64,000 nucleotides of DNA. It comes from Nitrosomonadales bacterium (GTDB lineage Bacteria; Pseudomonadota; Gammaproteobacteria; Burkholderiales; Gallionellaceae). Where the stretch lies: positions 1 through 64,000 of the forward strand of contig JACRME010000016.1 in assembly GCA_016235045.1 (NCBI GenBank), given 5' to 3'. The position numbers and the translations under genes were made by a program. How positions within the stretch are numbered: position 1 is the stretch's first letter; every line of letters begins with the position of its first letter. The notes beneath the pieces are model-generated. The model did not search any database, was not told the origin of the DNA, and was given only the letters and a program-made list of their open reading frames with translations. Positions 33,879-63,255 of this stretch are shown piece by piece.

Positions 33879-33924
33879 CTATATCTTTTGGCATATGTTC
33901 CCGCGGACACTTTATTGTTAGGCT
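33879..33924 (+). promoter_or_regulatory. Bipartite promoter-like motif, copy 1 (DUF805 gene)
   Basis: CTATATCTTTTGGCATAT is followed after exactly 18 bases by TTGTTAGGCT. It is the most degenerate copy in the second half. The DUF805 start codon lies 58 bases downstream. Confidence 0.6.
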
Positions 33925-33981
33925 CCGCCGCCATAAGAATTCAAAACCGCGTTACTGGCAGGTAAGGCGAAAGGGAATGAC

Positions 33982-34314
33982 ATGAACTGGTATTTCGATG
34001 TGCTGAAGAACTACGCGGCGTTTGAGGGAAGGGCCGGAAGGGAAGAATACTGGCATTTCACCTTGCTCAACATCATCGTCGGCATCGCGCTGTTTGTCAC
34101 ACTCAATGAACTCTGGGCTGTCTATACCGTAGTCGTTCTAACCCCGAGCGTCGCAGTATCGGTGCGGAGACTGCATGACATCGATCGCAGCGGCTGGTGG
34201 GTTTTGATCGCTGCCGTTCCGTTCCTGGTCATCGTTCTCCTGTTTCTGATGTTGCAAGACGGCGAACCCGGCGAAAACCGGTATGGATTCAACCCCAAAG
34301 ACGTCATAGCCTAG
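33982..34314 (+). CDS. DUF805 family membrane protein
   Basis: A 110-residue inner-membrane protein with the DUF805 pattern: NYAAFEGRAGREEYWHF near 10-26, three hydrophobic segments and RRLHDIDRSGWW near 62-73, ending near GENRYGFNP. Function is unknown for the family. It stands alone behind promoter-like motif copy 1. Confidence 0.9.
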   Translation: MNWYFDVLKNYAAFEGRAGREEYWHFTLLNIIVGIALFVTLNELWAVYTVVVLTPSVAVSVRRLHDIDRSGWWVLIAAVPFLVIVLLFLMLQDGEPGENRYGFNPKDVIA

Positions 34315-34522
34315 CCGCGTCAATTGCGGCGCCAGCATCACCTTCTGCAGACTTGCACTAGTCCATAAAGCACAGCGGCTGAAATACAGCGGGTAAAGCC
34401 GCCTCGGCCTTCTCCTGCGTCTCATGTCGACGCATTGCGAACTTTGTAATTTGCGCCAAACGATATAGAGTACAGAACGCAACCCATTCCGCGAGACAAC
34501 CATAGGCCTGCACAATTCCGTC

Positions 34523-35407
34523 ATGTCTCCAATCATCACTGCCGCAAAACTGTTTAAACAATATCCCGGCGTCATCGCTGTCGACAGGATTGACCTTGCC
34601 ATTCCCAAGGGGATTTGCTTCGGCTTGCTCGGCCCGAATGGCGCCGGCAAGACCACCACCATCGAGATGCTGGAAGGCATACAGATGCAAACCAGCGGTA
34701 CGGTGCTCTACAAAGGCGAACCGCTGGGGGCGCGCTACCGCGAAGAGGTCGGCATCCAGTTTCAGCATACGGCGCTGCAGGAATTCCTGACGGTACGCGA
34801 GACGCTGGAATTGTTCGAGCGGCTCTATCGCCGCACCCTGCCGATTCCGGAGCTGATCGAGTTGTGTTCGCTGGCGGACATTCTGGAACGCGACACGCGC
34901 AAGATTTCCGGCGGGCAAAGACAGCGCCTGCTGCTCGCGTTGGCATTGATCAACGATCCCGAGTTGATCTTTCTGGATGAGCCCACCACCGGGCTGGATC
35001 CGCAGGCGCGGCGCAATTTCTGGGACTTGGTCAACCTGGTGAAGTCGCGCGACAAGACCATCGTGCTGACCACGCACTATATGGAGGAGGCATATGCCCT
35101 GTGCGACGAGATCGCCATCATGGACAAGGGGCGGATCGTCTCGCAGGGCACGCCGGCGCATTTGCTGTCCGAACACTTTGGCGACGTGATATTGCAGATC
35201 CCCCAAAGCGATGCCGGAAGCAAACTTGCCGATTTTGGACTGAGCGCAGTGCAGGCGGGCGATATGCTGGAAATCAGAACCAATCGCCTGCACCAAACGC
35301 TGCAACAGCTACTGGAAAACGGAATCAATCTGGATCGTTTGCGCATCCGCGCCTGGACGCTCGAAGATTTGTTCATCAACGTGACAGGGAAGAAACTCAA
35401 CCCATGA
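34523..35407 (+). CDS. ABC-2 type exporter ATPase
   Basis: A 294-residue ATPase with Walker A GPNGAGKTTT near 38-47, signature ISGGQRQRLLLAL, Walker B LIFLDEPTTGLD and H-loop LTTHYMEEA, the CcmA/drug-exporter branch. The C-terminal extension of about 80 residues is usual in that branch. It overlaps the permease start (ATGA). The cargo is unknown. Confidence 0.92.
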   Translation: MSPIITAAKLFKQYPGVIAVDRIDLAIPKGICFGLLGPNGAGKTTTIEMLEGIQMQTSGTVLYKGEPLGARYREEVGIQFQHTALQEFLTVRETLELFERLYRRTLPIPELIELCSLADILERDTRKISGGQRQRLLLALALINDPELIFLDEPTTGLDPQARRNFWDLVNLVKSRDKTIVLTTHYMEEAYALCDEIAIMDKGRIVSQGTPAHLLSEHFGDVILQIPQSDAGSKLADFGLSAVQAGDMLEIRTNRLHQTLQQLLENGINLDRLRIRAWTLEDLFINVTGKKLNP

Positions 35408-36411
35408 GAAAATTCCTGGCCGTATTGCATGCCCGCAACATGGAATTCCTGCGCGACCGCTCCGCGCTGGCCTGGAATCTCGCCATGCCGTTCATGCTGG
35501 TGATCGGTCTGGCGTTCACCTTTTCCAGCAGCGACAGGGATATCTACAAGATTGGCCTGGTGGGTGGGCTCGACAAACTGCACAGCGTCGCCCCCGCGCT
35601 GCAATCGACAAGATATATCTCGTACGTTCCCTACGACGACCTGAATGCCGCGATCGGAAAAGTAAAACACCATCAAATGGACATGCTGATCGACGTCAGC
35701 GGGACGCCGAGATACTGGATCAACTCAAGTTCGCCCAGCGGTTACCTGCTGGAGCGCATCGTTCGGGGGGCGGAAGGGCATCGGTTCGAACGGCAGGTCG
35801 TGGAAGGGGCCGAAATACGCTATGTCGACTGGTTCCTCCCCGGCATCCTGGGCATGAACATGATGTTCGCCTGCCTGTTCGGCGTCGGTTTCGTGATTGT
35901 GCGCTACCGCAAGAACGGATTCCTGAAACGCCTGAAGGCGACGCCGCTGGGCGCATTCCAGTTCCTGTTTGCGCAACTGATCTCGCGTCTGCTGTTGATC
36001 ATGCTGGTCACCATGATCGTCTATACCGGTTGCAATTTCTTCATCGAATTCAACATGCAGGGCTCGTATTGGACGTTGTTGCTGGTCACCACCCTGGGGG
36101 CGATGAGCATGATCTCCATCGGCTTGCTCATCGCGGCGCGCACGGCCAGCGAAGAACTGGCAGGCGGCATTCTCAATCTTGTGGTGTGGCCGATGATGCT
36201 GTTGTCGGGCGCATGGTTTTCGCTGGAAGGCGCGCAAGTCTGGGTGCAAAAAATATCGTTAATCTTCCCGCTGACGCATATGATTTCGGCGGCGCGCGCG
36301 ATCATGAACGAAGGCGCCACGTTGCTCCAGGTGATGCCGCATGTCTGGGTGCTCGCCCTCATGAGCATCTTTTTTGTGGCGATTGGAGCGTACGTGTTCA
36401 AGTGGGAGTGA
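35404..36411 (+). CDS. ABC-2 type exporter permease
   Basis: A 335-residue permease. TM1 lies near 20-40, a periplasmic domain of about 120 residues follows, then five transmembrane segments from about 150 on, with the ABC-2 family blocks RYRKNGFLKRLKATPLG and LSGAWFSLEG. Start ATG at 35404 lies within the ATPase stop. Together they form a complete two-gene half-transporter exporter. Confidence 0.9.
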   Translation: MRKFLAVLHARNMEFLRDRSALAWNLAMPFMLVIGLAFTFSSSDRDIYKIGLVGGLDKLHSVAPALQSTRYISYVPYDDLNAAIGKVKHHQMDMLIDVSGTPRYWINSSSPSGYLLERIVRGAEGHRFERQVVEGAEIRYVDWFLPGILGMNMMFACLFGVGFVIVRYRKNGFLKRLKATPLGAFQFLFAQLISRLLLIMLVTMIVYTGCNFFIEFNMQGSYWTLLLVTTLGAMSMISIGLLIAARTASEELAGGILNLVVWPMMLLSGAWFSLEGAQVWVQKISLIFPLTHMISAARAIMNEGATLLQVMPHVWVLALMSIFFVAIGAYVFKWE

Positions 36412-36490
36412 TTGCTGCCGCATTGCCGGCCTTGCAGTAATGAATCGGGTGCCGTATCGTTCTCCCAACCGGTTGGAGCACATTGATACC

Positions 36491-39076: not shown

Positions 39077-40375
39077 TTAAACAGCCGCCCGGCATACCGC
39101 TAACTCGCTCCACTCGGTCGTATACCGCTTCGACCGGTTCTCCCTGCGCATGGCCCAGGCTTTATGCGTTCCTTCACCCAGCAATTTGATGGTGCCACTG
39201 CCCATGCTGCGGTTGATGCGATCCAGCGTGCGCATCAACACGTGCGATTTCTCTTGTGCCTCTGCGTCGTCGAACAAGGTTTGCGGTCTGGCCGAAGCGG
39301 GAATGATTCCGGTCAGCATTACGCCCGCTTTTTGATAGACATAGCCCGCGCGGTAGATGCGGCGCAGTCCGTGCAGCGCCGCATGGCACAGCAGGCGCGT
39401 GTCGCCGGTTGGCTCGGGCAAGGGCATCAGCGCCGCCTGCCGGTATTGCGGGTCGCGTTCCTTGTGCGGATTGGTGCGGATATACACCTGAATGCCGCTG
39501 GCCAACGAGTGCTGCTGCCGCAATTTCTCCGCTGCGCGCGTGGCATAGGCGACCACGGCCTCCTCCAGGTCGGCCAACAGGGAAGTCGGCACCCCGAACG
39601 AGCGCGAGCAAATGATCTGCTGCTTGTCCGGCACCACGTCATCCAGTTCCAGGCAGGCGACACCGTTCAGTTCCGCCACGATGCGTTCCTGCACCACGCT
39701 GAATTTCTCGCGCAGGCGTTTGGCCGGTGTGCGTTTCAGGTCGAGCACGGAGCGGATGCCCATCTCGTTGAGCCTGCCCGTGCTGCGCCTGCCCACGCCC
39801 CACACTTCACCTACATCGATGGCGGCGAACAGGTCGTTCAATTCCTTTTCCGTCAGCGCGTTGAAATCGCATACCGCGCCGAAGCGCGGATTTTTCTTGG
39901 CGACATGGTTGGCGAGCTTGGACAGGGTCTTGCTCGACGCAACGCCCACGCACACCGGAATGCCGACACAGCGGCGGATAGTCTCGCGGATGCGTTGCGC
40001 ATATTGCGTGTGATCGGCGGGAATGCCGGTCAGGTCGAGGAACGACTCGTCGATGGAATACACCTCCTGCTCCGGGCTGAATTGCGCCAGCAGCGACATC
40101 ACCCGGTTGGAGAGATCGGCATACAGCTCGTAATTGGATGAGAAGGCGACGATGCCGTGGCGTCTGGCCATGTCCTTCATCTGATACCAGGGCACGGCCA
40201 TCTTCATTCCCAGGTCTTTCACTTCCTGCGAACGCGACACCACGCAACCGTCGTTGTTGGACAGTACCACCACCGGCCTGCCTTCCAGGTCGGGGCGGAA
40301 CAGGCGCTCGCAGGAAACGAAGAAGTTGTTGCAGTCGACCAGCGCGATGGCACGTTTCATTTCATCATTCGACAT
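39077..40375 (-). CDS. umuC: DNA polymerase V catalytic subunit UmuC
   Basis: A 432-residue Y-family translesion polymerase: ALVDCNNFFVSCERLF near 11-26 with the first catalytic Asp, YSIDESFLDL near 108-117 with the Asp-Glu pair, a helix-hairpin-helix (LFAAIDVGEVWGVGRRS) and a little-finger domain. It acts in SOS mutagenesis with UmuD'. A start at the Met five codons later is equally possible; neither has a strong ribosome binding site. Between umuD and umuC lies a 110-bp palindromic repeat element. Confidence 0.93.
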   Translation of the reverse strand: MSNDEMKRAIALVDCNNFFVSCERLFRPDLEGRPVVVLSNNDGCVVSRSQEVKDLGMKMAVPWYQMKDMARRHGIVAFSSNYELYADLSNRVMSLLAQFSPEQEVYSIDESFLDLTGIPADHTQYAQRIRETIRRCVGIPVCVGVASSKTLSKLANHVAKKNPRFGAVCDFNALTEKELNDLFAAIDVGEVWGVGRRSTGRLNEMGIRSVLDLKRTPAKRLREKFSVVQERIVAELNGVACLELDDVVPDKQQIICSRSFGVPTSLLADLEEAVVAYATRAAEKLRQQHSLASGIQVYIRTNPHKERDPQYRQAALMPLPEPTGDTRLLCHAALHGLRRIYRAGYVYQKAGVMLTGIIPASARPQTLFDDAEAQEKSHVLMRTLDRINRSMGSGTIKLLGEGTHKAWAMRRENRSKRYTTEWSELAVCRAAV

Positions 40376-43305: not shown

Positions 43306-43390
43306 TTGGATACCACCGATACTCCCGTGCTACAGATGTCCTTCGGCAATGCATTGAAAAACATTAGGGCAATTTTGGCCTGGTGCAAGG

Positions 43391-43438
43391 CCTGTATATT
43401 TTGTCATGTAGCCTGAAAGGGTCTTTGCTGCTAGATTG
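43391..43438 (+). promoter_or_regulatory. Bipartite promoter-like motif, copy 8 (NfeD-SPFH operon)
   Basis: CCTGTATATTTTGTCATGT is followed after 18 bases by CTGCTAGATTG. The first half is the most diverged copy (GTCATGT for GGCATAT), but the spacing is exact. The NfeD-like start lies 78 bases downstream. Confidence 0.55.
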
Positions 43439-43516
43439 CGGGTTGATGCATCCGGCATTCCATGCGGACGTCGAGGAATGGGCAATGGTTCAGGCATGGC
43501 AAACAGAAAGGAAGTC

Positions 43517-43936
43517 ATGGAAATCTACATTTACTGGTTCTTGCTGGCGATCATCCTGATCGGTCTGGAGATGGTCACCGGCACGTTCTACCTGCTGGTG
43601 GTCGCCATCGCGATGGCCGTGGGCGGCGTGGCGGCGTTGCTGGGGGCAGGCATGGCGTGGCAACTGGTGTTCGGCGCGGTCACCGGTGTCGCGGGCACGA
43701 TTGTCCTGAGGCGCTGGAAAAGCGCCCAGCCGGCGGACGCGCCCAACGCAAATTTCGATGTCGGCCAGCCGGTGCGCGTCATCAAGTGGAACGACAGCGG
43801 GTCGGCCAGGGTCTTTTACCGCGGCGCGGAATGGGATGCAGAACTTGAGTCCGCCGACATCCCGCGCGAAGGAACGCTCTATATCGCCGCAGTGCGCGGC
43901 TCCGGTCTGGTGCTGACGCATCGCAAACAACAATAA
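43517..43936 (+). CDS. NfeD-like membrane protein
   Basis: A 139-residue protein with two or three N-terminal transmembrane segments (about 3-22, 25-62) and a C-terminal OB-fold domain (VGQPVRVIKWNDSGSARVFYRG). NfeD proteins pair with SPFH proteins and help organise membrane microdomains; the SPFH gene follows nine bases later. The ATG at 43517 has AAAGGAAG; another ATG seven codons upstream is possible. Confidence 0.88.
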   Translation: MEIYIYWFLLAIILIGLEMVTGTFYLLVVAIAMAVGGVAALLGAGMAWQLVFGAVTGVAGTIVLRRWKSAQPADAPNANFDVGQPVRVIKWNDSGSARVFYRGAEWDAELESADIPREGTLYIAAVRGSGLVLTHRKQQ

Positions 43937-44851: not shown

Positions 44852-44909
44852 TCGGCAGGGCAGCGAACAGCCCGGAAAAATTGCCTCTGTTGACCAAACC
44901 GGACAGGGC

Positions 44910-44956
44910 ATAGGCCCTTTGGCATATTTCCTTATAGAGGCTTTACTGCTAAATTG
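44910..44956 (+). promoter_or_regulatory. Bipartite promoter-like motif, copy 9 (lipoprotein gene)
   Basis: ATAGGCCCTTTGGCATAT is followed after 18 bases by CTGCTAAATTG. The left arm is degenerate, but CCTTTGGCATAT is as in copy 4. The lipoprotein start is 86 bases downstream. Confidence 0.55.
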
Positions 44957-45042
44957 CGGGCAGGACGTGTGTTTTTTGTTGAAAATGGCACAAGCAATTG
45001 CATTCAGGATATAGTCTTCAAAAATAACAGGGAGTGTGGACG

Positions 45043-45483
45043 ATGCGATTCAAAACGACTTTAATGGTGGCACTGATTACCCCGGTGTTTCTGGCAGGCT
45101 GTTTTGGGAGCGGCGGCAGCAGCAACGTCGGCGGCACGGACTACGATGGCAACTGGCCGAATGTGGCTTTCGTGAATCCCGATGTGGTAGACCCGGCTCC
45201 TGGAACCAACCAGACCATGATTTGTTCCCAGCCGCCCGTCGCAATGACGATCGTGAACGGATACGGTTCCACCATGCAATTGCGGTCTTGCCAAGCCTAC
45301 ACCACAGGCACCTCAACCCCTGTGGGTGTCCAACAAAATTTCTATTACCTCATCAGCGTTTCCATTCTTCCGGGCAACATCGTAAATGCCGAAGTAAATG
45401 GCCTGCCACTGACCGGAAAGTGCCTTAGCCCGGTGGGATGTTACGCAGTAGCCGGAACGGCGGGTTTAACCCTTACGCGCTAG
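45043..45483 (+). CDS. Hypothetical lipoprotein
   Basis: I recognise no family. The 146-residue protein has a lipobox (FLAGC, Cys20) after a short signal, then a Gly/Ser linker and a small beta-rich domain with three further cysteine positions (MICSQPP, RSCQAY, GKCLSPVGCYAV). A GTG three codons upstream is possible. It stands alone behind motif copy 9. Confidence 0.75.
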   Translation: MRFKTTLMVALITPVFLAGCFGSGGSSNVGGTDYDGNWPNVAFVNPDVVDPAPGTNQTMICSQPPVAMTIVNGYGSTMQLRSCQAYTTGTSTPVGVQQNFYYLISVSILPGNIVNAEVNGLPLTGKCLSPVGCYAVAGTAGLTLTR

Positions 45484-47184: not shown

Positions 47185-47213
47185 CGCGAAGAAGCGCTAC
47201 TACATATAAAGAC

Positions 47214-47261
47214 CTATATCTTTTGGCATATAGGCAATAGGGGATTTTGCTGCTAATCTTA
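47214..47261 (+). promoter_or_regulatory. Bipartite promoter-like motif, copy 2 (GGDEF-EAL operon)
   Basis: CCTATATCTTTTGGCATATA then GG completes a perfect 7-bp dyad (CCTATAT-N8-ATATAGG). After 18 bases from GGCATAT comes CTGCTAATCTT. The operon start codon lies 117 bases downstream. Confidence 0.65.
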
Positions 47262-47378: not shown

Positions 47379-49874
47379 ATGCATTCCAATGGACTCGGTC
47401 TGGAATCAAATGCCACTCATACCATGAGTTACGTCGCAGTCGAAGGAAGCAAACGACCGGGCAGCACAGCGAGATCGGTGAGGCTGCGCAAACCACGGAT
47501 ACACAAGCTTCAAACGCGCATCGTACTTGCTTTTAGTCTGCTGCTGCTTCTGATTCAGGCCACCAGTCTGGTGATGATCAACACCGTCCTGTCGGAGCGC
47601 GCAGATCAGGATATCCGGCGGAATCTGCTGGCCGGGCAACGCGTTTTCAATCAGGTGCGCGAAGACAATAACCGGCAACTGATTCAGTCGGCAACCATCA
47701 TGTCCTCGGATTTTGCTTTCCGGAAAGCCATTGCGACCGGCGATTATGGAACAGTGGTCTCAACGCTGACCAATCATGGCGCCAGGATCAAGGCGGATGT
47801 GCTGCTGCTGGTGGCTACCGACGGAAAAATGATCGCCGACACATTGCCTGCCGGACATGCCGAACCGACATTTCAATTTCAGGAACTCATCGGGACGGCG
47901 GAACAACGGGGCCAATCGGCGGCCATGGTGGCGCTGGATGACAAGCTTTATCAAATGGTGGTTGTGCCGGTGTTGGGGCCGTTACCTATCGCATGGCTGA
48001 TCGTGGGCTTCAACATTGACGAGAAATTCGTTCGCAACTTGCAGGCGGCTACTGCGCTGAACGTTTCATTCCTTGCCGGAGCCCCGAACAAAAACGAGTG
48101 GCGGTTGCTTGCGAGTACGCTTCCGGCCGGCACGTCTGCCGCCTTCCCGAAAGTGCTGCATGGCCTGCCCGTTGGGGAAATAAAAGAAGACAATCTCGCC
48201 ACGCTGAGCATGGGCGATGAAGATCACCTGGCGCTTTCTTCCGATATGGGGAAGCAGGGTGGCACTCAAATCATCGCCATCCTGCAACAGTCGCTGCAAC
48301 AGGCACTGGAGCCGCTGCGGCGTTTACAGGTCATCTTGTTATACCTGAGCGCGATATCGTTGTTGGCGATGCTGGCTGCGAGCTACAAAATCGCACGGAA
48401 CATCACCAAACCGATCAGTGTGCTCGGCAACCTGGCCAGACGCATACAGCAGGGCGACTATTCGGAACCCGCCACGGTCGATCGGGAGGATGAGATTGGC
48501 GAACTCGCTTCGGCCTTCAACCACATGAAAGATGGATTGGCCACGCGGGAAGCCAAGATTACCGAGTTGGCCTACCGCGATCAACTGACCGGATTGCCCA
48601 ATCGCATTTTGTTTCACGACAGGCTGGAGCAGTCGGCCAAACTGACAAGTCGCGCGGGGCAGAATCTTGCGCTGCTGATCATCAACCTGGACAGGTTCAA
48701 GGAGGTCAACGTCATCCTGGGCCACCATATCGGCGATCTGCTGTTGCAGGAAATATCCCGGCGGCTGGCATTCATACTCGAGCGCGAATCCGACACGCTG
48801 GCGCGGCTGGGAGGGGATGAGTTCGCCGTGCTGCTTTCGGATTGCGACGCGCGGGGCGCGATGATGGTTGCACGCAAGATTCTGGACACATTGGATCAGC
48901 CGATTTTGCTCGAGGGGCAGGAAGTCATCGCCACCGGCAGTATCGGCATCGCCATCTATCCCGAGCACGGCAGCGAAATCAACACACTCATGCGTCGTGC
49001 CGACATCGCCAAGTACGAGGCAAAACGCAATAACGCCGGCTATGCGCTTTTCGACCTGAATTATGTTGAAAAAAACCAGGAGCATTTGTCGCTGCTGGCG
49101 GGGTTGCGCCACGCCATCGAACGGAACGAGTTCGTCCTCTACTACCAGCCCAAGGTGAGGTTCGCGGCCGGTGAGATTGGCCACGTGGAGGCGCTGGTGC
49201 GCTGGATACACCCGGAGCGGGGCATGATCCCTCCCGATCAGTTCATTCCCTACGCCGAACATACCGGATATATACGGAACATTACCCGATGGGTGATTGA
49301 GGAGGCATTCCGCCAGCGCAAGGAATGGGAGCAAATGCAGCTGCCTTTGACCGTTTCCGTCAACATATCGGCAAGAGATCTGGTGAATGCCGATCTCCCC
49401 AGGGTAATCGCGGAGCTGATGGACAAGTATGGGGCATCGCCGGACTGGATGTGCCTGGAAATCACCGAAAGCGCGATCATGGGCGATACCAAACGAGCCT
49501 TGAGCATATTGGACGAGCTTCACGACATGGGCATTACCCTCTCGGTGGATGATTTCGGCACAGGCTATTCTTCGCTTGCGTACCTCAAGAAATTGCCCGT
49601 TTCCGAATTGAAAATAGACCAGTCTTTCGTGTTCCACATGGCCGATGACAAGGACGACGCGACCATCGTGCGATCGACCATAGAAATGGGCCACAACATG
49701 GGGCTGGTGGTTGTGGCGGAAGGCATTGAAAACAAGGCGACCTGGGATATGCTGAACGACATGGGGTGCGACCTGGCGCAGGGGTACTACATCGGCAAAC
49801 CCATGCCTGCGGACGCGTTATTGAAGTGGCTTGCACAAGCGCCGTGGAAAGTGTCCGGGGATTGGCGCGAATAA
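47379..49874 (+). CDS. Membrane HAMP-GGDEF-EAL c-di-GMP turnover protein
   Basis: An 831-residue inner-membrane protein: TM1 near 47-69, a periplasmic sensor of about 250 residues (dCache-like, with DVLLLVATDGKMIADTLP), TM2 near 318-338, HAMP, GGDEF (about 400-560) and EAL (about 575-815). Active sites look intact: RLGGDEF with an RESD inhibitory site, and VEALVRW plus DDFGTGYSSL. GGAGGAACC supports the ATG at 47379; the frame opens 44 codons earlier. The downstream outer-membrane and cupredoxin genes suggest a periplasmic metal or redox signal. Confidence 0.92.
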   Translation: MHSNGLGLESNATHTMSYVAVEGSKRPGSTARSVRLRKPRIHKLQTRIVLAFSLLLLLIQATSLVMINTVLSERADQDIRRNLLAGQRVFNQVREDNNRQLIQSATIMSSDFAFRKAIATGDYGTVVSTLTNHGARIKADVLLLVATDGKMIADTLPAGHAEPTFQFQELIGTAEQRGQSAAMVALDDKLYQMVVVPVLGPLPIAWLIVGFNIDEKFVRNLQAATALNVSFLAGAPNKNEWRLLASTLPAGTSAAFPKVLHGLPVGEIKEDNLATLSMGDEDHLALSSDMGKQGGTQIIAILQQSLQQALEPLRRLQVILLYLSAISLLAMLAASYKIARNITKPISVLGNLARRIQQGDYSEPATVDREDEIGELASAFNHMKDGLATREAKITELAYRDQLTGLPNRILFHDRLEQSAKLTSRAGQNLALLIINLDRFKEVNVILGHHIGDLLLQEISRRLAFILERESDTLARLGGDEFAVLLSDCDARGAMMVARKILDTLDQPILLEGQEVIATGSIGIAIYPEHGSEINTLMRRADIAKYEAKRNNAGYALFDLNYVEKNQEHLSLLAGLRHAIERNEFVLYYQPKVRFAAGEIGHVEALVRWIHPERGMIPPDQFIPYAEHTGYIRNITRWVIEEAFRQRKEWEQMQLPLTVSVNISARDLVNADLPRVIAELMDKYGASPDWMCLEITESAIMGDTKRALSILDELHDMGITLSVDDFGTGYSSLAYLKKLPVSELKIDQSFVFHMADDKDDATIVRSTIEMGHNMGLVVVAEGIENKATWDMLNDMGCDLAQGYYIGKPMPADALLKWLAQAPWKVSGDWRE

Positions 49875-52258: not shown

Positions 52259-52280
52259 GCCCTGAAAAATCGCCGTCGCA

Positions 52281-52328
52281 CCTATATCTTTTGGCATATA
52301 TGCCGGAGGGGATTTTGCTGCTAGGCTT
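52281..52328 (+). promoter_or_regulatory. Bipartite promoter-like motif, copy 3 (CZB-GGDEF gene)
   Basis: CCTATATCTTTTGGCATATA is followed by GGGGATTTTG and CTGCTAGGCTT, the consensus form. The cyclase start codon is 45 bases downstream. Confidence 0.65.
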
Positions 52329-52373: not shown

Positions 52374-53291
52374 ATGAAACATTACGATATCACCCGGGAA
52401 AAACTGCAAGGAATTCTTGCCAAGCTCGAACATGCCCTCATACATCATCAGCACTGGCATGCCGGGGTGATTCGCTCGATTAGCTGCAAGCTGCTGGTGG
52501 ACAAATGCGATCTTGCCCCTGAATCGTTTCGCACATGCGGTTTTGGCCAATGGTACTACAGCAATGAAAATGAGGATCTGCGTGAATTTGCCGGATTCGT
52601 TGCCCTGGGCGAAAAACATAAGCTCATGCACCAGATGGCAGAGAAGTTGCTCATCGAGGCCCAGGAGGAAGGGCCTGTCGACGTTTTCGACTTTGACAAC
52701 TTTGCAAATGCGCTCGAAGGGATGCGCCTCGAACTCTCTGCGTTAGAGCATGAATTGGAAAACATGCTGTACAACCACGATGCGCTTACAGGCGCCATTA
52801 CACGGTATGGCATTCTCCCGGCTTTTCGCGAGCAACATGAGTTGATAAAACGGGGATTGCAGTCAAGCTGTATTGTCATGGTGGACCTGGATAACTTCAA
52901 GACCGTCAATGATCGATATGGGCATCTTGCAGGCGACCGTGCGCTGATCGCATCGGCCCGCTACATGATTGAGCACCTCCGTTCTTATGACAAGGTCTTC
53001 CGTTATGGCGGTGAAGAATTCCTTCTTTTGCTGCAGCATACCGAAATGACTGCCGGTTATGAATTGGTGGAGCGCTTGCGTAAAGGAATCGAGTCCCTGA
53101 CCATTGACGTCGAAGGCCAGGTACCGATCCATATTACCGCTTCGTTCGGATTGGTATGCCTTGATCCAGACTCGCCAGTCGAAAGCTCCATTGATCGTGC
53201 CGACAAGGCAATGTATATGGCAAAAGCCGCCGGACGCAATAGTGTCCGGATCGGTGATTTGGCGCCGCTATCGGAGATGCAATCGCAGTAA
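52374..53291 (+). CDS. Zinc-sensing diguanylate cyclase (CZB-GGDEF, DgcZ-like)
   Basis: A 305-residue cytosolic cyclase. The N-terminal CZB domain has candidate zinc ligands His24-His29, Cys55 (FRTCGFGQW) and His82/His86 (HKLMH). The GGDEF domain carries YGGEEF with an RSYD inhibitory site. The layout matches E. coli DgcZ, whose activity is inhibited by zinc; the same control is inferred here. It stands alone, promoted by motif copy 3. Confidence 0.93.
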   Translation: MKHYDITREKLQGILAKLEHALIHHQHWHAGVIRSISCKLLVDKCDLAPESFRTCGFGQWYYSNENEDLREFAGFVALGEKHKLMHQMAEKLLIEAQEEGPVDVFDFDNFANALEGMRLELSALEHELENMLYNHDALTGAITRYGILPAFREQHELIKRGLQSSCIVMVDLDNFKTVNDRYGHLAGDRALIASARYMIEHLRSYDKVFRYGGEEFLLLLQHTEMTAGYELVERLRKGIESLTIDVEGQVPIHITASFGLVCLDPDSPVESSIDRADKAMYMAKAAGRNSVRIGDLAPLSEMQSQ

Positions 53292-54135: not shown

Positions 54136-54185
54136 GGCATATGTCCTTTGGCATATGGCCGGAAAGGAATTTTGCTGCTAGGCTT
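54136..54185 (+). promoter_or_regulatory. Bipartite promoter-like motif, copy 4 (paralogue B)
   Basis: GGCATATGTCCTTTGGCATAT with GGCC keeps the dyad (CATATG on both sides) although its sequence differs from the other copies. The second half is the consensus TTTTGCTGCTAGGCTT at the same spacing. The start codon of paralogue B is 93 bases downstream. Confidence 0.6.
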
Positions 54186-54278: not shown

Positions 54279-54632
54279 ATGTTGGAAAATGAAAATCAAC
54301 CGTTGAACTGGAATATCGAGCTTAACTTCAATCTCCTTGAAGCCAAGCGGGAAGAGCCTGTTCAGGCGCCCAAAATTCCGCCCAGGCAGGTCATCGGGGA
54401 GAAGTACCCCAAGATACTGACCCGGATCGAAATGCTCTGGTGTTCCCGTGAGTTGCACAACTACCTTGAGCAAACCCTGTTTACCGACCGCTCAAACAGG
54501 CAAGGTTTTCCGGCAGACGTGATGAAGGCATTGGGCGAGATACACGCTGAACATACGCGGGTATTGAAAGAGAAGAGATTACTCAGTGACGACGTATGGG
54601 ACATGCAGCCAAAGCCCAGGGACTTGTCCTGA
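54279..54632 (+). CDS. Hypothetical protein, tandem paralogue B
   Basis: A 117-residue protein, clearly homologous to the gene at 53677 (PPRQVIGEKYPKILTRIEMLW, LHNYLEQTLFTDRSNRQGFP, KALGEIHAEHTRVL). It has an extended C-terminus ending PKPRDLS. Its promoter region carries motif copy 4. The pair looks like a recent tandem duplication of a lineage-specific gene. No function can be given. Confidence 0.7.
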   Translation: MLENENQPLNWNIELNFNLLEAKREEPVQAPKIPPRQVIGEKYPKILTRIEMLWCSRELHNYLEQTLFTDRSNRQGFPADVMKALGEIHAEHTRVLKEKRLLSDDVWDMQPKPRDLS

Positions 54633-54665: not shown

Positions 54666-54944
54666 ATGACCGAACACGCTGAAGTACCACACAACAAACG
54701 CAATATCTGGATACGCGGATTGTTCATGCTGTTGATGGGTCTCGCGTTCCATGTATGCGCGACCGTGCTGGGTTTTGTGGTTGTCATCCAGTTCGCGATG
54801 GCGCTGCTGAACGACGCACCCAACGCCCGGCTGGTTTCATTTGGCCGCAGCATGGGCAACTACCTGCGGCAGATCGTAAACTACCTGACTTTTGCCACCG
54901 AAGAGATGCCGTTTCCATTCAACGAATGGCCTGCGGGCGAGTAG
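54666..54944 (+). CDS. DUF4389-like membrane protein
   Basis: A 92-residue protein with one or two hydrophobic segments (about 14-48, IWIRGLFMLLMGLAFHVC) and the family ending RLVSFGRSMGNYLRQIVNYLTFATEEMPFPFNEWP. DUF4389 proteins have no known function. GGAGAGC precedes the ATG, 33 bases after paralogue B. Confidence 0.85.
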   Translation: MTEHAEVPHNKRNIWIRGLFMLLMGLAFHVCATVLGFVVVIQFAMALLNDAPNARLVSFGRSMGNYLRQIVNYLTFATEEMPFPFNEWPAGE

Positions 54945-55080: not shown

Positions 55081-55851
55081 TTGAAATCTTTGGGCACAAC
55101 GCTACAGCGCTGGCGCATGCGTAGAATCGTGCAGCGCCATCCCTTGCCGCATCACATCTGGCACCAGGCGACGCGGCAGCTTGTCGTATTGCAGGGTCTG
55201 GACGCAGTGCAAATGGCGCATCTGCGCGAACTCACAACCTGGTTTCTGCACAGCAAGGCGATCAACGGCGTGCACGGTCTGGAAGTGACGATGCCGATGC
55301 GCGTGGCGGTGGCTGCCCAGGCCTGCCTGTTGATCCTGAACCTGGGCACCCGCTACTTCGACAACTGGGTCGAGGTCGTCCTCTATCCCGGCGCCTTTGG
55401 CGTCAGTCGGGAGCAGACGGATGAAATCGGGCTGGTGCATGAAGACACCCAGGTGCTCAGCGGCGAATCATGGATACGCGGCCCGGTGGTTTTGTCCTGG
55501 GATGACGTGGAGTGGGACAGCTATCACCAGACCGGCAGCAACGTCGTGCTGCACGAGTTTGCGCACAAACTGGATGGCCTCAGCGGGGAAACGAACGGCA
55601 TGCCGCCGCTGCACCGCGGCATGAGCCGCAAAATTTGGGCCGAATCCATGAGTTCTGCCTACGATGCGCTGCATCGGCAAGCGGCCGCCGGGAAACCGCC
55701 TTGCATCGATCCCTATGCCGCCACCAACCCGGCCGAATTCTTCGCGGTAGTGACCGAGTATTTCTTTACCGAGCCGGAAACATTGAAGGACTGCTATCCG
55801 GAAGTTCACCGGCAACTGGCGTTGTTTTACCAGCAGCCAGTATCGCGTTAA
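55081..55851 (+). CDS. mtfA: MtfA-like M90 zinc metallopeptidase
   Basis: A 256-residue peptidase with the zinc motif VVLHEFAHKLDG (His158, Glu159, His162) and NPAEFFAVVTEYFF, where the third ligand Glu lies. E. coli MtfA titrates the repressor Mlc and has peptidase activity; here the natural partner is unknown. The frame opens with a TTG at 55081; an ATG twelve codons later is also possible and neither has a clear ribosome binding site. Confidence 0.87.
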   Translation: MKSLGTTLQRWRMRRIVQRHPLPHHIWHQATRQLVVLQGLDAVQMAHLRELTTWFLHSKAINGVHGLEVTMPMRVAVAAQACLLILNLGTRYFDNWVEVVLYPGAFGVSREQTDEIGLVHEDTQVLSGESWIRGPVVLSWDDVEWDSYHQTGSNVVLHEFAHKLDGLSGETNGMPPLHRGMSRKIWAESMSSAYDALHRQAAAGKPPCIDPYAATNPAEFFAVVTEYFFTEPETLKDCYPEVHRQLALFYQQPVSR

Positions 55852-55950
55852 CAGCCCAAAGACGCCCGTATTTACTGACATGCGGGCCAATCACATATCG
55901 ATTTTGCAACTAATCAGCAAGGTCAATGCGGGGGAGGCCTAAGTCGAGGT

Positions 55951-55997
55951 CTATATCTTTTGGCATATATGAGTGAAAGTGCTTTTCTGCCAGGCTT
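55951..55997 (+). promoter_or_regulatory. Bipartite promoter-like motif, copy 5 (phospholipase-like gene)
   Basis: CTATATCTTTTGGCATATAT is followed after 18 bases by CTGCCAGGCTT. The start codon is 93 bases downstream. Confidence 0.6.
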
Positions 55998-56090
55998 CGG
56001 GCCGGTAAATGGCAGGAAAATGCGGTTGTGGAGCAATGCATTGCAGTTTCACAACCGCTTCGACTAGAAGTTTTTCCAGGGAGCATCCAA

Positions 56091-57083
56091 ATGCAAATAA
56101 GACACTTCCAGATTATTGTACCGGTTCTTATTTTCGTGATTGGAGTTTCTGGCCATGCTTCAGGCCAAGATGATCTAAATACGTTTGATCCAAGTTACGT
56201 GGTTTACAAAAAGACTGATCAGGGCGATAGCTGCCACAGGGCACGGCTGGCTCCATATGAACCCAGCTATGTGAAAGTACATAAATCGGTTGGCGATGAT
56301 TTGACTCTGCGCGCTCATTACTCGTTTAAGTACACAGCGTACCCTGTCTCAAATGAATTGGAATCCAATGACGGAAAATCCTGCACAACGAATATTCTTG
56401 CCGACGAACACCTGATATATCCGGATGGTGAAATCTACTTGAGCTATATCGGTGAATTTGATTTCTATATGTTTGACTCCCCTGATAGACCTTCATCTCC
56501 GGTAATCAACAGAATTAGCAATCCGGCGCTTCATTATCGGCGTCATTTGGAGAACATCAATTGGATAGATGTCGGCTTCGAACACCGCTCAAATGGACAG
56601 ACTACTGAGGTATCCTCTCCTGCTGATGCCGCAAGAGTGCAGCAAGCGTACATTCAGGAAGATCGCGTCTTCTTCGATGGAATCAGTCGCGGCTCCAATT
56701 ATTTTTCACTTGAGGTACACAAACTCATCAGAAATGCAGACAAGGACAAAGAAATCAGCACGTACGTCAAACTCAAAGTTTACGCCTCGAAAAATAGCGA
56801 AATTACTTGGGGGCCGCTTGCGGGAACAAATATATCCATTTCTGACTATGACCGACTCAGATTTCTGGCAAAAAGAGCGCTACTTGGAAATGATGAATTA
56901 ACCATTGAATGGATGTTGGGCGACAAGATGCTGAAAACAGACTCATGGAACCTGGACTATCAGTTTTCGCGAAGTGCGGCACTTCCCCTATATATTGGCT
57001 TTCACTTTGGCCCAATGCAGACTCTTTCGGATTACACCACAGAGGTGAAATCAATAAGTATTGGGCTGAAGTTTGCGCCATAG
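56091..57083 (+). CDS. Phospholipase A1 (OMPLA)-like outer-membrane protein
   Basis: A 330-residue secreted protein with signal peptide 1-25. The block VGFEHRSNGQ (His165, Ser167) matches the catalytic His-Ser of outer-membrane phospholipase A, and SRGSNYFSLEV resembles the following SRSWNRLY segment. The beta-strand ending KSISIGLKFAP fits an outer-membrane barrel. The N-terminal region with three cysteines is unusual. Local composition is visibly AT-richer than the genes before it. GGGAG precedes the ATG. Confidence 0.77.
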   Translation: MQIRHFQIIVPVLIFVIGVSGHASGQDDLNTFDPSYVVYKKTDQGDSCHRARLAPYEPSYVKVHKSVGDDLTLRAHYSFKYTAYPVSNELESNDGKSCTTNILADEHLIYPDGEIYLSYIGEFDFYMFDSPDRPSSPVINRISNPALHYRRHLENINWIDVGFEHRSNGQTTEVSSPADAARVQQAYIQEDRVFFDGISRGSNYFSLEVHKLIRNADKDKEISTYVKLKVYASKNSEITWGPLAGTNISISDYDRLRFLAKRALLGNDELTIEWMLGDKMLKTDSWNLDYQFSRSAALPLYIGFHFGPMQTLSDYTTEVKSISIGLKFAP

Positions 57084-58064: not shown

Positions 58065-58096
58065 CCGCAAACGTTTTATCCAATACAGGTTGTCGA

Positions 58097-58140
58097 CATC
58101 TTTTATCCGGTGGCACAGTGGGGTTTTTGCTGCTAGGCTT
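58097..58140 (+). promoter_or_regulatory. Bipartite promoter-like motif, copy 6 (GAF-GGDEF gene)
   Basis: CATCTTTTATCCGG keeps the ATCTTTT word, and CTGCTAGGCTTCGG follows at the same total distance (31 bases from ATC to CTG). The GGCATAT is replaced by ATCCGGT. The chosen start codon is 172 bases downstream. Confidence 0.55.
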
Positions 58141-58188: not shown

Positions 58189-58251
58189 GGTGCAGGCGCG
58201 AAGTCGTTCGCACAAAACTTTGATCGCGCGAATGAATTCGCACCTGCAAAT
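58189..58251. repeat. Repeat relic in GGDEF leader
   Basis: GGTGCAGGCGCGAAGTCGTTCGC (as split words) and GCGAATGAATTCGCACCTGC form an imperfect inverted repeat related to the 12381 palindrome. It lies in the 5' leader between motif copy 6 and the GAF-GGDEF start. Confidence 0.55.
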
Positions 58252-58312
58252 CCCCAGCAACGTTTTTTTGCAGGTTGAATTCGAATTCATCGCAATCACC
58301 GCATTGGTGGAC

Positions 58313-59455
58313 ATGGACAACCAACCCCAGACCGAGTCACAGCAACTGCGCGACCAGCTTCAATCGCTGATGGATGCAGCCCGCCTCAATGAAAAAAAGT
58401 GGCGACGTCTGGATCAGTTCGAAAAACAGTTGATCGCCACGCGCACCTTGCCGGAACTCGTCCAGTTGATGCTCGAAAACTACCAGACCGCCTGCGAGAC
58501 CGATGTGGTGACGCTGGTGCTGTGCGATCCCGAATACGAGATCAGGCGCATCCTGGAAAGATCGCAATCGGGCTGCGACGAAGTACCCGGCCTGGTGCTG
58601 CTGGAAAAGCTGCCTGCGCATGATGCCGAGCCTGCCCCCTATCTCGGCCCCTTCGATGCCGAAATGGAGCGCGCCATTTTCGACCCCTGGCCCGACGGTT
58701 GCCATTCCATGATGCTGCTGCCGCTGATGCGCCAGGGTGAACTGGTCGGCAGTCTCAACATGGCCAGCAGCGCCGCCGAGCGCTTCTCGGCTGACAGAAG
58801 CACCGACTTCGTCGAGCGGCTCGCGGACATATTCTCGATCTGCCTGGAAAACGCGCTCAACCATGAACGCCTCAACCTGATCGGCCTGACCGATCCGCTC
58901 ACCGGCATCTTCAACCGGCGCTATCTCGAAACCCGCTGCCAGGAAGAGACCGCGAACGTGCGGCGCTATCGCAGTCCGCTTTCCTCGATGTTTCTCGACA
59001 TCGACAAATTCAAGCGCATCAACGACACCTACGGCCACATCATGGGCGACGAGGTGCTGCGCAAGGTGGCCAGCCTGATCAAATCGGAGTTGCGCAGCAA
59101 CGACGTGCTGGCGCGCTATGGCGGCGAAGAGTTCGTCGTGCTGTTGCCGCAGACCGCGCTGCACCATGCCTGCGAGATCGCCGAGCGCATCCGCGGCACC
59201 ATCGCCGAACACCCTTTCCGTTTCGACGGGCGCGACGAACTGCAGGTGACCATCTCCATCGGCGTTGCCCAGGTTCCCGCGGAACCCGAAGGCTCGGACC
59301 GGGACATCGCCCACAAGCTGCTCGCTGCCGCCGACGAAGCTTTGTACCTGGCCAAGGAAAGCGGCCGCAACAAAGTCGTCAGCGAACAGAATCGCCCAGC
59401 GACGGTCGTGGCGAAACGCAGCCTGATCAAAATGCTGGGTTTCGGTTCGGCGTGA
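58313..59455 (+). CDS. Cytosolic GAF/DUF484-like diguanylate cyclase
   Basis: A 380-residue cytosolic protein with a short coiled coil, a GAF/DUF484-like sensor (about 45-190) and a GGDEF domain (about 215-365) with RYGGEEFVVLL and an RSND inhibitory site. It should make c-di-GMP. The ATG at 58313 fits the family; the frame is open 65 codons further up through the repeat relic, which is probably not coding. Confidence 0.9.
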   Translation: MDNQPQTESQQLRDQLQSLMDAARLNEKKWRRLDQFEKQLIATRTLPELVQLMLENYQTACETDVVTLVLCDPEYEIRRILERSQSGCDEVPGLVLLEKLPAHDAEPAPYLGPFDAEMERAIFDPWPDGCHSMMLLPLMRQGELVGSLNMASSAAERFSADRSTDFVERLADIFSICLENALNHERLNLIGLTDPLTGIFNRRYLETRCQEETANVRRYRSPLSSMFLDIDKFKRINDTYGHIMGDEVLRKVASLIKSELRSNDVLARYGGEEFVVLLPQTALHHACEIAERIRGTIAEHPFRFDGRDELQVTISIGVAQVPAEPEGSDRDIAHKLLAAADEALYLAKESGRNKVVSEQNRPATVVAKRSLIKMLGFGSA

Positions 59456-60363: not shown

Positions 60364-60365
60364 TC

Positions 60366-60470
60366 AGCAACTTGGCAAACGTACCGAAAGGTACGGACGC
60401 AAAGTCTCCGGCCTAAGGGAAGCTACGGTAGCGGGACTGCGACACAAGGCGTTCTTCCTTGTGTCCATCC
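60366..60470 (+). ncRNA. c-di-GMP-I (GEMM-I) riboswitch with downstream hairpin
   Basis: The conserved GEMM-I blocks are all here in order: GGCAAAC, the GTACC-GAAA-GGTAC stem with its GAAA tetraloop, GGACGCAAAG, CTCCGGCCTAA and GGTAGCGGG. A hairpin GACACAAGG/CCTTGTGTC (60441-60465) follows directly but lacks a U-tract, so control may be by another switch such as a terminator alternative or translation. It lies 77 bases upstream of the bacteriohemerythrin start and would tie its expression to c-di-GMP. Confidence 0.92.
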
Positions 60471-60546: not shown

Positions 60547-61050
60547 ATGTCTAATGATGAAATCTTCTTCAAATGGTCTCCGGACTATAGCGTCAACATC
60601 AAGGCCATCGACGATCAGCACCAGGAGTTGGTCAACATCCTCAACCGGCTTTTCGTCGCGGTATCCAAACGCGAGGGCGACCAGGCCATTGCCGGGATAC
60701 TGGACGCACTTGTAAGTTATACGCAGACGCACTTTGCGCTGGAAGAACGACTGATGCGGCAGGCAAAATACAAGGATCTTGAACCGCACATCGCCGAACA
60801 CAAAAAATTGCTGGAGCAATTGGACCAACTGGCGAAGAAGCACATGCTCGAAGAAAAGCCGATCTATTTCGAGATGCTGGCCTTCCTGAAGTCCTGGCTC
60901 AAGGTGCACATCCAGGGAGTGGATATGAAATACAGCACTGCATTACAGCAGGCCGGATTTTCGGTCGACGCGTGGGAGCGTGAAGCTACTGCCGAGTTTG
61001 CGACCATGTCGAATTCGAAGAAATGGTGGGAGGTCTGGAAAGCCGCTTGA
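60547..61050 (+). CDS. Bacteriohemerythrin
   Basis: A 167-residue O2-binding diiron protein with the hemerythrin ligand set: DDQHQEL (His25), HFALEERLM, HIAEHKKLLEQ and HIQGVDMKY, each on one of four helices. A tail of about 30 residues after the domain ends KWWEVWKAA, aromatic and basic. GGGAGG lies eight bases before the ATG. It is controlled by the GEMM-I riboswitch just upstream, so c-di-GMP sets the level of an oxygen-binding protein. Confidence 0.94.
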   Translation: MSNDEIFFKWSPDYSVNIKAIDDQHQELVNILNRLFVAVSKREGDQAIAGILDALVSYTQTHFALEERLMRQAKYKDLEPHIAEHKKLLEQLDQLAKKHMLEEKPIYFEMLAFLKSWLKVHIQGVDMKYSTALQQAGFSVDAWEREATAEFATMSNSKKWWEVWKAA

Positions 61051-62170: not shown

Positions 62171-62192
62171 CTTGATCCATGCGAGGTGTGTC

Positions 62193-62435
62193 ATGTCAAC
62201 AGTCAATATCCATGAAGCCAAAACCCAGTTCTCACGCATCGTCGAGCAGGCGGAGGCGGGCGAGGAGATCGTGATCGCGCGTGGCGGAAAGCCGGTGGCG
62301 CGCCTGGTGTCTCTGGCTTCTGCCGCGCCCAAACCCCGCAAGCTCGGTCTGGGCAAGAAACGTTTCACTTTTCCGGCAAACTTCGACAACCTGAATGCGG
62401 GTGAAATAACGTCCATGTTCGAGCAGGGCAAATAA
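62193..62435 (+). CDS. Phd/YefM-type antitoxin
   Basis: An 80-residue antitoxin: STVNIHEAKTQFSRIVEQAEAGEEI is the Phd/YefM DNA-binding fold, and the C-terminal region (KRFTFPANFDNLNAGEITSM) should wrap the toxin. It overlaps the toxin start (TAATG). GAGGTG lies before the ATG. Confidence 0.9.
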   Translation: MSTVNIHEAKTQFSRIVEQAEAGEEIVIARGGKPVARLVSLASAAPKPRKLGLGKKRFTFPANFDNLNAGEITSMFEQGK

Positions 62436-62842
62436 TGGCCCGGCACGTGTACTTGCTGGATACCAATGTACTACTGGCGGCATTGCTTGCCCCCGAACGC
62501 TTGCCTCAAGAGGTGGTCGCGGGGCTGTCCGATTCATCCAACACTGTCTATTTCAGCTCGGCCAGCATTTGGGAAATCGCGATCAAGCGGTCTTTGAACC
62601 GTGCGGATTTTGATTTTTCTCCGGAGGATATTCACCGCCTTGCGAAGGACACCGGGTTCACCGAACTGACGGTGAAAGGTGAGGATTGCTATCCCCTGGT
62701 GGATTTGCCCTGGCATCACCGAGACCCGTTTGATCGATTACTGATTGCGCAGGCGCAATCGTTGCCAGCCTATTTGCTCACAACCGATGGCGTGCTGAGC
62801 CAATATTCAGAGCTGGTCGTGCATCTGACTTTGAGGCCATGA
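62435..62842 (+). CDS. vapC: PIN-domain toxin (VapC-like)
   Basis: A 135-residue PIN-domain ribonuclease with Asp9 (LLDTNVLL), the Glu in SIWEIAIK and the DPFDRLLIAQA acidic block that bind the catalytic metal. Paired with a Phd-type rather than AbrB-type antitoxin. It likely cleaves RNA when free. The HigA-like gene follows 18 bases after its stop. Confidence 0.9.
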   Translation: MARHVYLLDTNVLLAALLAPERLPQEVVAGLSDSSNTVYFSSASIWEIAIKRSLNRADFDFSPEDIHRLAKDTGFTELTVKGEDCYPLVDLPWHHRDPFDRLLIAQAQSLPAYLLTTDGVLSQYSELVVHLTLRP

Positions 62843-62860
62843 ATGATTAAGGAGATAGTC

Positions 62861-63187
62861 ATGGACAAATTAAAGAACATTCACCCCGGCGAAATCCTCC
62901 GCGAAGAGTTCTTGCTCCCGATGGAGATCAGCCAAACCAGACTCGCCAACTCCATCGGAGTGCCACCGCGTCGCATCAACGAGATCGTGCTGGGCAAGCG
63001 CGGCATCACGGCGGATACCGCCTTGCGCCTTGCCAAAGTGTTCGGAACCTCCGTGCAATTCTGGATGGGATTGCAGGACGAATACGAACTGCGCGAGGCA
63101 CGCAGCGCGATCAAGGATCAACTGGAACAGATGATGCCGATTGCGGGTAGAAAGTATTTCGAGCCAGGCCACTTTAATTCGTGGTGA
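62861..63187 (+). CDS. higA: HigA-type XRE antitoxin without HigB
   Basis: A 108-residue protein with HPGEILREEFLLPMEISQTRLA and an XRE helix-turn-helix (ANSIGVPPRRINEIVLGKRG), the HigA family. AAGGAGATAG lies before the ATG at 62861. HigB is normally encoded directly upstream; here a PIN toxin occupies that position and no HigB frame is present. It may be an orphan or a third regulator of the module. Confidence 0.88.
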   Translation: MDKLKNIHPGEILREEFLLPMEISQTRLANSIGVPPRRINEIVLGKRGITADTALRLAKVFGTSVQFWMGLQDEYELREARSAIKDQLEQMMPIAGRKYFEPGHFNSW

Positions 63188-63208
63188 TGCTGCGGCCTTG
63201 GTGAAGGT

Positions 63209-63255
63209 CTATATCTTTTGGCATATAGGCGAGCAGGGGATTTGCTGCTAGGCTT
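63209..63255 (+). promoter_or_regulatory. Bipartite promoter-like motif, copy 7 (DUF6883-DUF4926 operon)
   Basis: CTATATCTTTTGGCATATAG (perfect 6-bp dyad) is followed by GGGGATTTG and CTGCTAGGCTTCGG at the consensus distance. The DUF6883 start codon is 74 bases downstream. Confidence 0.65.

Follow-up and report, generated by a model that had tools for sequence, protein, structure and literature searches.

A bipartite promoter-like element in Gallionellaceae predicts a family-wide regulon with a small RNA as its putative core output

The window analysed here, the first 64 kb of a 201-kb contig (JACRME010000016.1) from the 3.15-Mb genome of a Nitrosomonadales bacterium of the family Gallionellaceae, contains nine copies of a bipartite promoter-like element. 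Sequence comparison makes it highly probable that these elements are sigma-70-type promoters under one putative dimeric activator, and that they belong to a family-wide regulon with a small RNA as its core output. This reading is carried by family-wide conservation, fixed geometry, intergenic and co-directional placement, and compensatory changes in the RNA, all of which the comparison establishes.

Each element would be a sigma-70-type promoter lacking a good -35 box and dependent on the activator. The activator would bind two 8-bp half-sites 4 bp apart, in their best form TATAGGCC-N4-GGCATATA, from about -54 to -35, and, as class II activators do, would lie close enough to contact RNA polymerase at a -10 box that is extended or near consensus. 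The predicted core output is an 85-nt small RNA, the exposed CUCCUCC stretch of which probably pairs with ribosome-binding sites. Further outputs would be enzymes of cyclic di-guanosine monophosphate (c-di-GMP) metabolism, hemerythrins, response regulators and envelope proteins, joined in variable places by defence-like genes, restriction genes among them. We infer activator binding at the site, synthesis of the RNA, its pairing with mRNAs through CUCCUCC, and one common signal for the whole set.

Anatomy and placement of the element

A preliminary description of the window had listed nine places where two short words stand 18 bases apart, and all nine are present in the sequence where it had placed them. 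The pattern TTTTGGCATAT-N18-CTGCTA matches exactly at 47221, 52289 and 63216, with one mismatch at 44917, 54146 and 55958, and with two at 33886 and 43399. It fails at copy 8 (58101), which fits the shorter word of the preliminary description with two mismatches. This copy (58097) retains the downstream half only, the upstream half-site being gone (model positions 27-63, E 3.6e-5); thus, all nine sites are real, and one of them is a half copy. The shorter word, with up to three mismatches, occurs seven times in the window, as compared to 0.02 expected from window shuffles.

A 65-position matrix was built from 55 sites of the own and related genomes, after one site with a weak left arm (L054:17172) had been removed between the 56-site set and the 55-row alignment. 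The own-genome rows comprise seven of the nine window copies and three further sites. When the matrix was retrained on the 45 sites from other genomes, the window matches scoring at least 10 were exactly the nine copies; at this score, neither a tenth place nor a minus-strand match was found on the two strands of the 64 kb, and 20 Markov shuffles yielded no places at all. The earlier statement that none lies in the first 33 kb likewise holds with the retrained matrix. Throughout the own genome, the profile search returned 13 places at E <= 1e-4, namely the nine in the window and four elsewhere (Table 1). Copy 8 and the element of a hemerythrin gene on another contig (C28; L134:3234-3298) both read GTGGCACnGTnGGnTTTTTGCTGCTAGGCTTCGG where GGCATAT is expected, and perhaps represent a second operator type.

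The alignment consensus is AAGGTCTATATC-TTTT-GGCATAT-N19-TGnTAnnnT. TGnTAnnnT, the extended -10 form of sigma-70 promoters, stands at a fixed distance from GGCATAT in 52 of the 55 aligned sites. The extended -10 box of the preliminary description is accordingly seen in eight of the nine window copies, while copy 7 reads CAGGCT instead of TAnnnT. The -10 variants TAGGCT, TAGATT, TACAAT and TATAGT are all of the TAnnnT type. The -35 region is poor: at the usual distance, most sites share two or three of six bases with TTGACA (three in 28 of 55), and three sites share four. Of the two half-sites of the window-type copies, the proximal one, GGCATAT, hardly varies, and the distal one is loose, usually GGTCTATATC. 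A sigma-54 promoter was rejected, as no box of the form TGGCAY-N4-6-TTGCW was found near any of the nine elements.

The placement of the element was analysed in 17 long loci (16 fetched, plus the window), in which 76 % of the sequence is predicted to be genic, for sites scoring at least 30. Every one of the 50 scored sites falls between genes; 47 of 49 have the following predicted gene in the same direction, one further site having no downstream gene. The preliminary description had named as refutation a motif equally common inside genes or in both orientations, and the opposite was found. Among the 47 co-directional sites, the gene start lies within 300 bp in 31 and within 1000 bp in 39. These figures come from a simple gene predictor, which left the open frames at 45034, 56028 and 63330, all window targets, uncalled. 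The eight window copies scored are all upstream of and co-directional with a gene, as had been described; copy 8, at 29.9 just under the cut of 30, was excluded from the count and precedes the GGDEF gene at 58232. These results support the earlier reading of a promoter with an extended -10 box and an upstream dyad-type operator, in a regulon of an undescribed activator.

A predicted small RNA behind the same operator

Weaker matches to the element in two loci (L018, L020) lie between grxD-like and convergent argH-like genes and are followed by no coding gene; in the own genome, a weaker match (L051) lies between prmC-like and argH-like genes (names by eye). These matches precede a predicted RNA of about 85 nt, which starts with GAGTTG or GAGTG and is composed of a hairpin, the invariant CTCTCCTCCTATT, and a second hairpin that acts with its T run as a putative terminator, the CUCCUCC stretch being unpaired between the two hairpins. 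The RNA was defined from 14 stretches examined, excluding two (L287, L288) that are not this RNA. The fold z-scores of three members range from -5.4 to -5.8. Five pairs changed on both sides in eight distinct sequences, as compared to 1.5 in shuffles (none of 500 as high), the structure having been derived from the alignment under test. A covariance model detected the RNA in 108 of 150 family genomes and 12 of 15 genera, including the own genome. With a promoter of its own, stable structure, terminator and intergenic site, it is a candidate Hfq-type trans-acting small RNA. None of the 4227 Rfam families reached its gathering score for L018, L020 or the own locus, where the best score was 23.5 bits against a gathering score of 50. 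In titles and the opening parts of abstracts, we found no match to the motif or the RNA and no regulon of this kind in iron-oxidising Gallionellaceae; the 85-nt RNA is apparently unreported so far.

The DNA upstream of the RNA was read at 48 loci (30 from the search, 16 additional ones from genomes of eight genera, and two earlier ones) by a script that required a word resembling a -10 box, a GGCATA-like right half, and a spacing of 28-40 bp. The operator was found at 47 of them. In 46 of these, 34 bp separate its end from the RNA start, and in the remaining one 33 bp; at the 48th locus (L390) it is present too, and was missed because the RNA start differs there. It is a near-perfect dyad, TATAGGCC-N4-GGCATATA, with the left half TATAGGCC in 33 and the right half GGCATATA in 38 of the 47. 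The central tetramer is GTTT in 22, its reverse complement AAAC in 10, and one of eight other spellings in 15. In an unfiltered check, the 200 bases before the CTCCTC word were scanned for the 16 specified bases of TATAKGCC-N4-GGCMTATA; the closest fit had no mismatch in 28 of the 48 loci, one in 11, two in four, three in four, and five in one, while three or fewer mismatches occurred in only 5 of 480 random 200-base stretches of the window. At the -10 of the RNA promoter, TACAAT, TAGAAT and TATAGT predominate.

In one genus (g8), none of the 11 genomes listed matched the RNA model, and in six of them the element gave one or two weak matches. The small RNA also has a weaker relative, which carries a similar CTCCTC word (G000, C32:189681-189771 on the minus strand, and L394-L397), with a sigma-54-type box TGGCAY-N5-TTGCT upstream in all four loci read. 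The two are perhaps sister RNAs under different control.

Distribution, putative target genes and the variable island

At E <= 0.01, the element was found in 95 of 150 sampled family genomes and 10 of 15 genera. Among 399 genomes of the order, it was found at E <= 1e-4 in 8 of 13 family members, as counted from a kinship-sorted listing, and in none of the 386 genomes outside the family. When 84,980 species genomes were scanned for the exact IUPAC pattern, 59 stretches were returned, of which 56 are from Sideroxydans, Sideroxyarcus, Gallionella or Ferrigenium, or from records titled Gallionellales, Gallionellaceae, Nitrosomonadales, Gammaproteobacteria or Proteobacteria. The predicted regulon is peculiar to one family, the Gallionellaceae as judged by record titles. 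The regulon proposed in the preliminary description is supported, but it is not a local one: the predicted network extends through the family, and the small RNA among its members lies beyond the window. The other three stretches are from Paraburkholderia (L291, L292, L296). Each of these genomes has the full pattern once, in front of a gene that by eye resembles glycerate kinase, and the three loci appear to be the same; they reflect either chance or a homologous regulator.

The assignment of genes to the putative regulon rests solely on their co-directional placement behind an element. Domain scans confirmed the three GGDEF genes and the DUF6883 gene that had been named among the window targets, as well as the phospholipase-like gene, albeit just under the Pfam cut-off (Table 1). 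A Yip1 gene lies further downstream of the dCache-HAMP-GGDEF-EAL gene. The element also precedes a DUF805-like gene in L067 and L150, and small proteins similar to that behind element 6, with a GGRQGFP-type stretch (by eye), are encoded behind it in L117, L133, L163, L164, L165 and L182. Elsewhere in the family, signalling genes behind elements encode cyclic-nucleotide-binding EAL, PAS-GGDEF-hemerythrin, hemerythrin and response-regulator-HD proteins, a hybrid kinase, and a response regulator followed by a class III cyclase domain. Other putative targets are VgrG-like, Mrr/ResIII plus helicase (type IIG-like), ThsB-type TIR, GmrSD_N, DUF4062 and AAA/PDC-S59 genes. As the VgrG-like gene (L151:1067-3451) lies behind an element, the regulon may include a gene of type VI secretion. 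In a PADLOC scan, five of ten proteins matched at E <= 0.001, one of them weakly, which is no measure of enrichment since the ten had been picked beforehand as defence-like.

A c-di-GMP-I-GGC riboswitch directly follows one element (L030); as a general feature behind the elements it was rejected, being true only this once. Within the window, a c-di-GMP-I aptamer (60364-60444, 67.7 bits) lies upstream of a hemerythrin gene (60547-61050), and the retrained matrix finds no element in front of it.

Copies 2-9 lie inside the interval between the umuDC- and tex-like genes, and copy 1 stands apart, before the DUF805 gene. Clustering of the element is seen in the genus of the window, and the gene content of the island differs between species; among the 17 long loci, the umuC-like gene was called in five, the tex-like gene in nine, and both in two. 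An ATPase gene lies behind the element both in a genus-1 island (L057) and at a lone site in genus 12 (L126). The two proteins are 85 % identical, and the DNA similarity (76 %) begins 12-27 bases into the frame and ends at the stop codons. Each copy carries a leader type found at other genes of its own genus (leader types by eye), with two counter-examples at other loci: L066 (genus 1) has a genus-12-type leader, and L128 (genus 7) has a genus-1-like one. For the leaders in other genera, 22 were picked from 23 loci by a word filter, and 19 were aligned after L171, L114 and L157 had been dropped. In other genera and in L066, a shared leader, GTATTTnnAGCCCCCGTGTTACTTGRACGGGG, apparently a hairpin, follows the element before unrelated genes (loci in Table 1). 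The genus-1 island copies (L053-L062) often share GAAAAGTATTNCGAACCCGACCCC, some tens of bases past the -10; since this sequence was also seen preceding an element in L059, it is perhaps a repeat in its own right.

Table 1. Positions of the elements, the genes behind them, the island borders and related features (window coordinates unless a contig or locus is named)
Feature	Position	Strand	Remark
Element 1 (operator to -10)	33876..33924	+	predicted +1 near 33932; precedes DUF805 gene
DUF805 membrane protein	33982..34314	+	behind element 1
umuC-like gene (by eye)	39077..40375	-	left island border
Element 2	43389..43437	+	precedes NfeD-like gene
NfeD-like protein	43478..43936	+	behind element 2; 28.4 bits, just under 29.1 cut-off
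SPFH/stomatin-like gene	43946-44851		after NfeD-like gene; named by eye
Element 3, weaker	44907..44955	+	left half-site ATAGGCC, as in small-RNA promoters
Putative lipoprotein (by eye)	45034..45483	+	behind element 3; no Pfam match; uncalled by predictor
Element 4	47211..47259	+	
dCache-HAMP-GGDEF-EAL protein	47379..49874	+	first gene behind element 4; start codon uncertain
Element 5	52279..52327	+	
CZB-GGDEF protein	52374..53291	+	behind element 5
Element 6	54136..54184	+	dyad CATATG...CATATG
Small protein	54279..54632	+	behind element 6; no Pfam or NCBIfam match
DUF4389 protein	54666..54944	+	next gene after 54279..54632
Peptidase_M90	55081..55851	+	next gene after DUF4389
Element 7	55948..55996	+	-10 = CAGGCT
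Phospholipase A1-like protein	56028..57083	+	behind element 7; 26.1 bits, Pfam cut-off 27
Element 8, degenerate	58091..58139	+	downstream half only; matrix score 29.9
DUF484/GAF-GGDEF protein	58232..59455	+	behind element 8
Element 9	63206..63254	+	best match of the genome, E 5.2e-19
DUF6883 protein	63330..63677	+	behind element 9
tex-like gene (by eye)	contig position 65735		past window end; right island border
Elements outside the window, own genome	C14:4243, C12:112040, C23:157778, C28:118236		profile search, E <= 1e-4
Small RNA, own genome	C23:139669-139753		covariance model
Loci with the shared leader	L120, L123, L125-L127, L130, L013, L066, L109, L132, L158, L159, L175, L184		

Alternative readings and likenesses to known systems

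Several observations weigh against the reading of the elements as activator-dependent promoters of a family-wide regulon. The four CRP/FNR-type and thirteen LuxR-type proteins of the own genome include no clear candidate for the activator, other regulator families not having been searched. Selection for symmetry, which the preliminary description had proposed for the window-type copies, was not borne out on either of two axes: on the axis proposed there (CTATAT/ATATAG), pairing is 88.5 % as compared to 88.8 % in shuffles and no pair in window-type sites changed on both sides, while on a second (7-4-7) axis pairing is 82.6 % as compared to 83.1 %, and two pairs changed on both sides, no more than in shuffles. 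The small-RNA promoters show a clear dyad, with an axis one base off the one first proposed; given the nearly invariant proximal and loose distal half-sites, the dimeric site is thus supported by the small-RNA promoters and not by the nine copies. In window-type sites and RNA promoters alike, 31.5 bp separate the dyad centre from the first -10 base, whereas this distance is about 29.5 bp in CRP class II sites. One site, at a neighbouring spacing, shares five of six bases with TTGACA. Longer flanks, for which promoters alone would have no need, are common to many island copies. The E-values behind the 95 of 150 genomes are rough, with about 1.5 of 150 expected by chance, and many genomes outside the genus of the window have one or two weak matches only. 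Finally, upstream DNA was read at 48 RNA loci, most of them picked by score, as compared to 108 genomes matching the RNA.

The four CRP/FNR-type proteins exceeded the cut-off, and the LuxR-type domain had fourteen matches in the own genome, one of which appears ECF-like by eye (extracytoplasmic function). FNR and one further CRP/FNR group, with FNR-like helices (by eye), occur in all eight genomes compared, including one (G020) that has no window-type site yet keeps the small RNA and its operator; missing window-type sites in that genome therefore say little about absence of the regulon. Several NarL-like groups are common to the eight genomes, for which part of the matched proteins was fetched, and none is singled out. 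By the spacing given above, the element falls outside the CRP/FNR type of class II promoter. EpsA was rejected as the activator. Its gene lies directly behind the tex-like gene at the island end, the protein passes TIGR03020, and LuxR-type proteins act near -42; however, it occurs in 6 of 100 family genomes (five over the cut-off), as compared to elements in 95 of 150, and at E <= 1e-20 it has no match in 94 of the 100, including five with a strong regulon (G004, G007, G013, G028, G030). Between epsA and the next predicted gene, at contig position ~69319 (L210:6319), there is a perfect 20-bp palindrome, TATAGACC-GAAC-GGTCTATA, with an 8-4-8 design like that of the RNA operator.

We consider it improbable that the elements are recombination or docking sites of an integron-like mobile-cassette system, with a secondary promoter look. 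Such a system would accommodate the eight of nine copies in the umuDC-tex island of varying content with its toxin-antitoxin-like pairs (by eye), the single direction of all copies, the upstream and leader sequences that some share past the element, and the ATPase gene, in which similarity between two genera is confined to the coding region and each leader resembles those of its own genus (by eye). However, single copies precede similar chromosomal genes at apparently the same loci in several genomes (lipoprotein/protease, DUF805, NfeD, response regulator), it is the bases of an extended -10 that are invariant, and the same element precedes a terminator-ended RNA gene. Repressor binding in front of a weak constitutive promoter, suggested by the dyad and by the near-consensus -10 of the RNA promoter (mostly TACAAT), appears decidedly improbable: the operator, whose end is constantly placed at -35 (46 of 47), overlaps neither the -10 nor the +1, and the poor -35 box leaves little to repress.

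The fixed spacing of two conserved blocks and their lineage-limited distribution would also suit an alternative ECF-type sigma promoter, with TTTTGGCATAT as the -35-like and CTGCTAGGCTT as the -10-like block. This seems very improbable, as the -10 varies within the TAnnnT type, the upstream block forms a dyad of 20 bp that varies at its centre and extends to about -54, and the 19-bp gap from GGCATAT to TGnTA would be long for ECF promoters. Chance or simple duplication, to which the flanks common to several copies might point, has a negligible probability; it is refuted by the empty shuffles (no match in 20), the unrelated proteins encoded by the window targets, the matches in 10 of 15 sampled genera, and the 0 of 386 genomes outside the family.

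The reading of activator-dependent promoters could be extended. Incoming genes might be kept where they fall behind a resident element, which with its genus-specific leader would serve as a landing pad, and join the family programme at once. A family-specific activator would then couple a core anti-Shine-Dalgarno small RNA, second-messenger signalling, and horizontally acquired defence and effector genes. In view of the two leader counter-examples, the landing pad is only a possibility, and we regard the joint claim as rather doubtful. If true, the umuDC-tex island would serve as a gene-capture locus whose organising feature is a regulated promoter and not a recombinase site. More generally, a regulated promoter that marks a variable island bears on how foreign genes enter host control. 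In the iron-oxidising Gallionellaceae, for which many matching records are metagenome-assembled genomes, the operator, the family-wide small RNA and the target list form a testable network. It raises the questions of which signal switches c-di-GMP metabolism and why defence-like and effector genes share the switch.

The proposed system resembles several known ones in part. Like integron cassette arrays and genomic hotspots, the island is a variable locus with toxin-antitoxin-like pairs and small genes facing one way, but its repeat is a promoter before each unit, with single copies elsewhere on the chromosome. The seed of the small RNA NfeR1 is reportedly C-rich and of the anti-Shine-Dalgarno type. 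The RNA described here shares with such RNAs an unpaired CUCCUCC between two hairpins, the second being a terminator. It differs in lineage, NfeR1 being a small RNA of rhizobia (PMC10746234), and no Rfam family matches it at gathering score.

In class II promoters, CRP and FNR bind at -41.5, and LuxR-type proteins at a lux box at -42.5. The elements share with these promoters a dyad just upstream of RNA polymerase, a poor -35 and an extended or good -10, while their half-site, TATAKGCC, is unfamiliar. The preliminary description had put the dyad centre at about -42; the small RNA sets the register of the promoter and moves the centre to about -44.5, if the RNA starts where its conservation starts. 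In the GacA-RsmY/RsmZ circuits, the main output of an activator is small RNAs that set life-style genes. The likeness lies in the dedicated operator before a conserved small RNA, and in the GGDEF/EAL genes and one VgrG-like gene behind the family element. The RNA described here has one CUCCUCC stretch in place of repeated GGA hairpins, its operator lies at about -44 and not far upstream, and the RNA and the mRNAs would share one activator directly.

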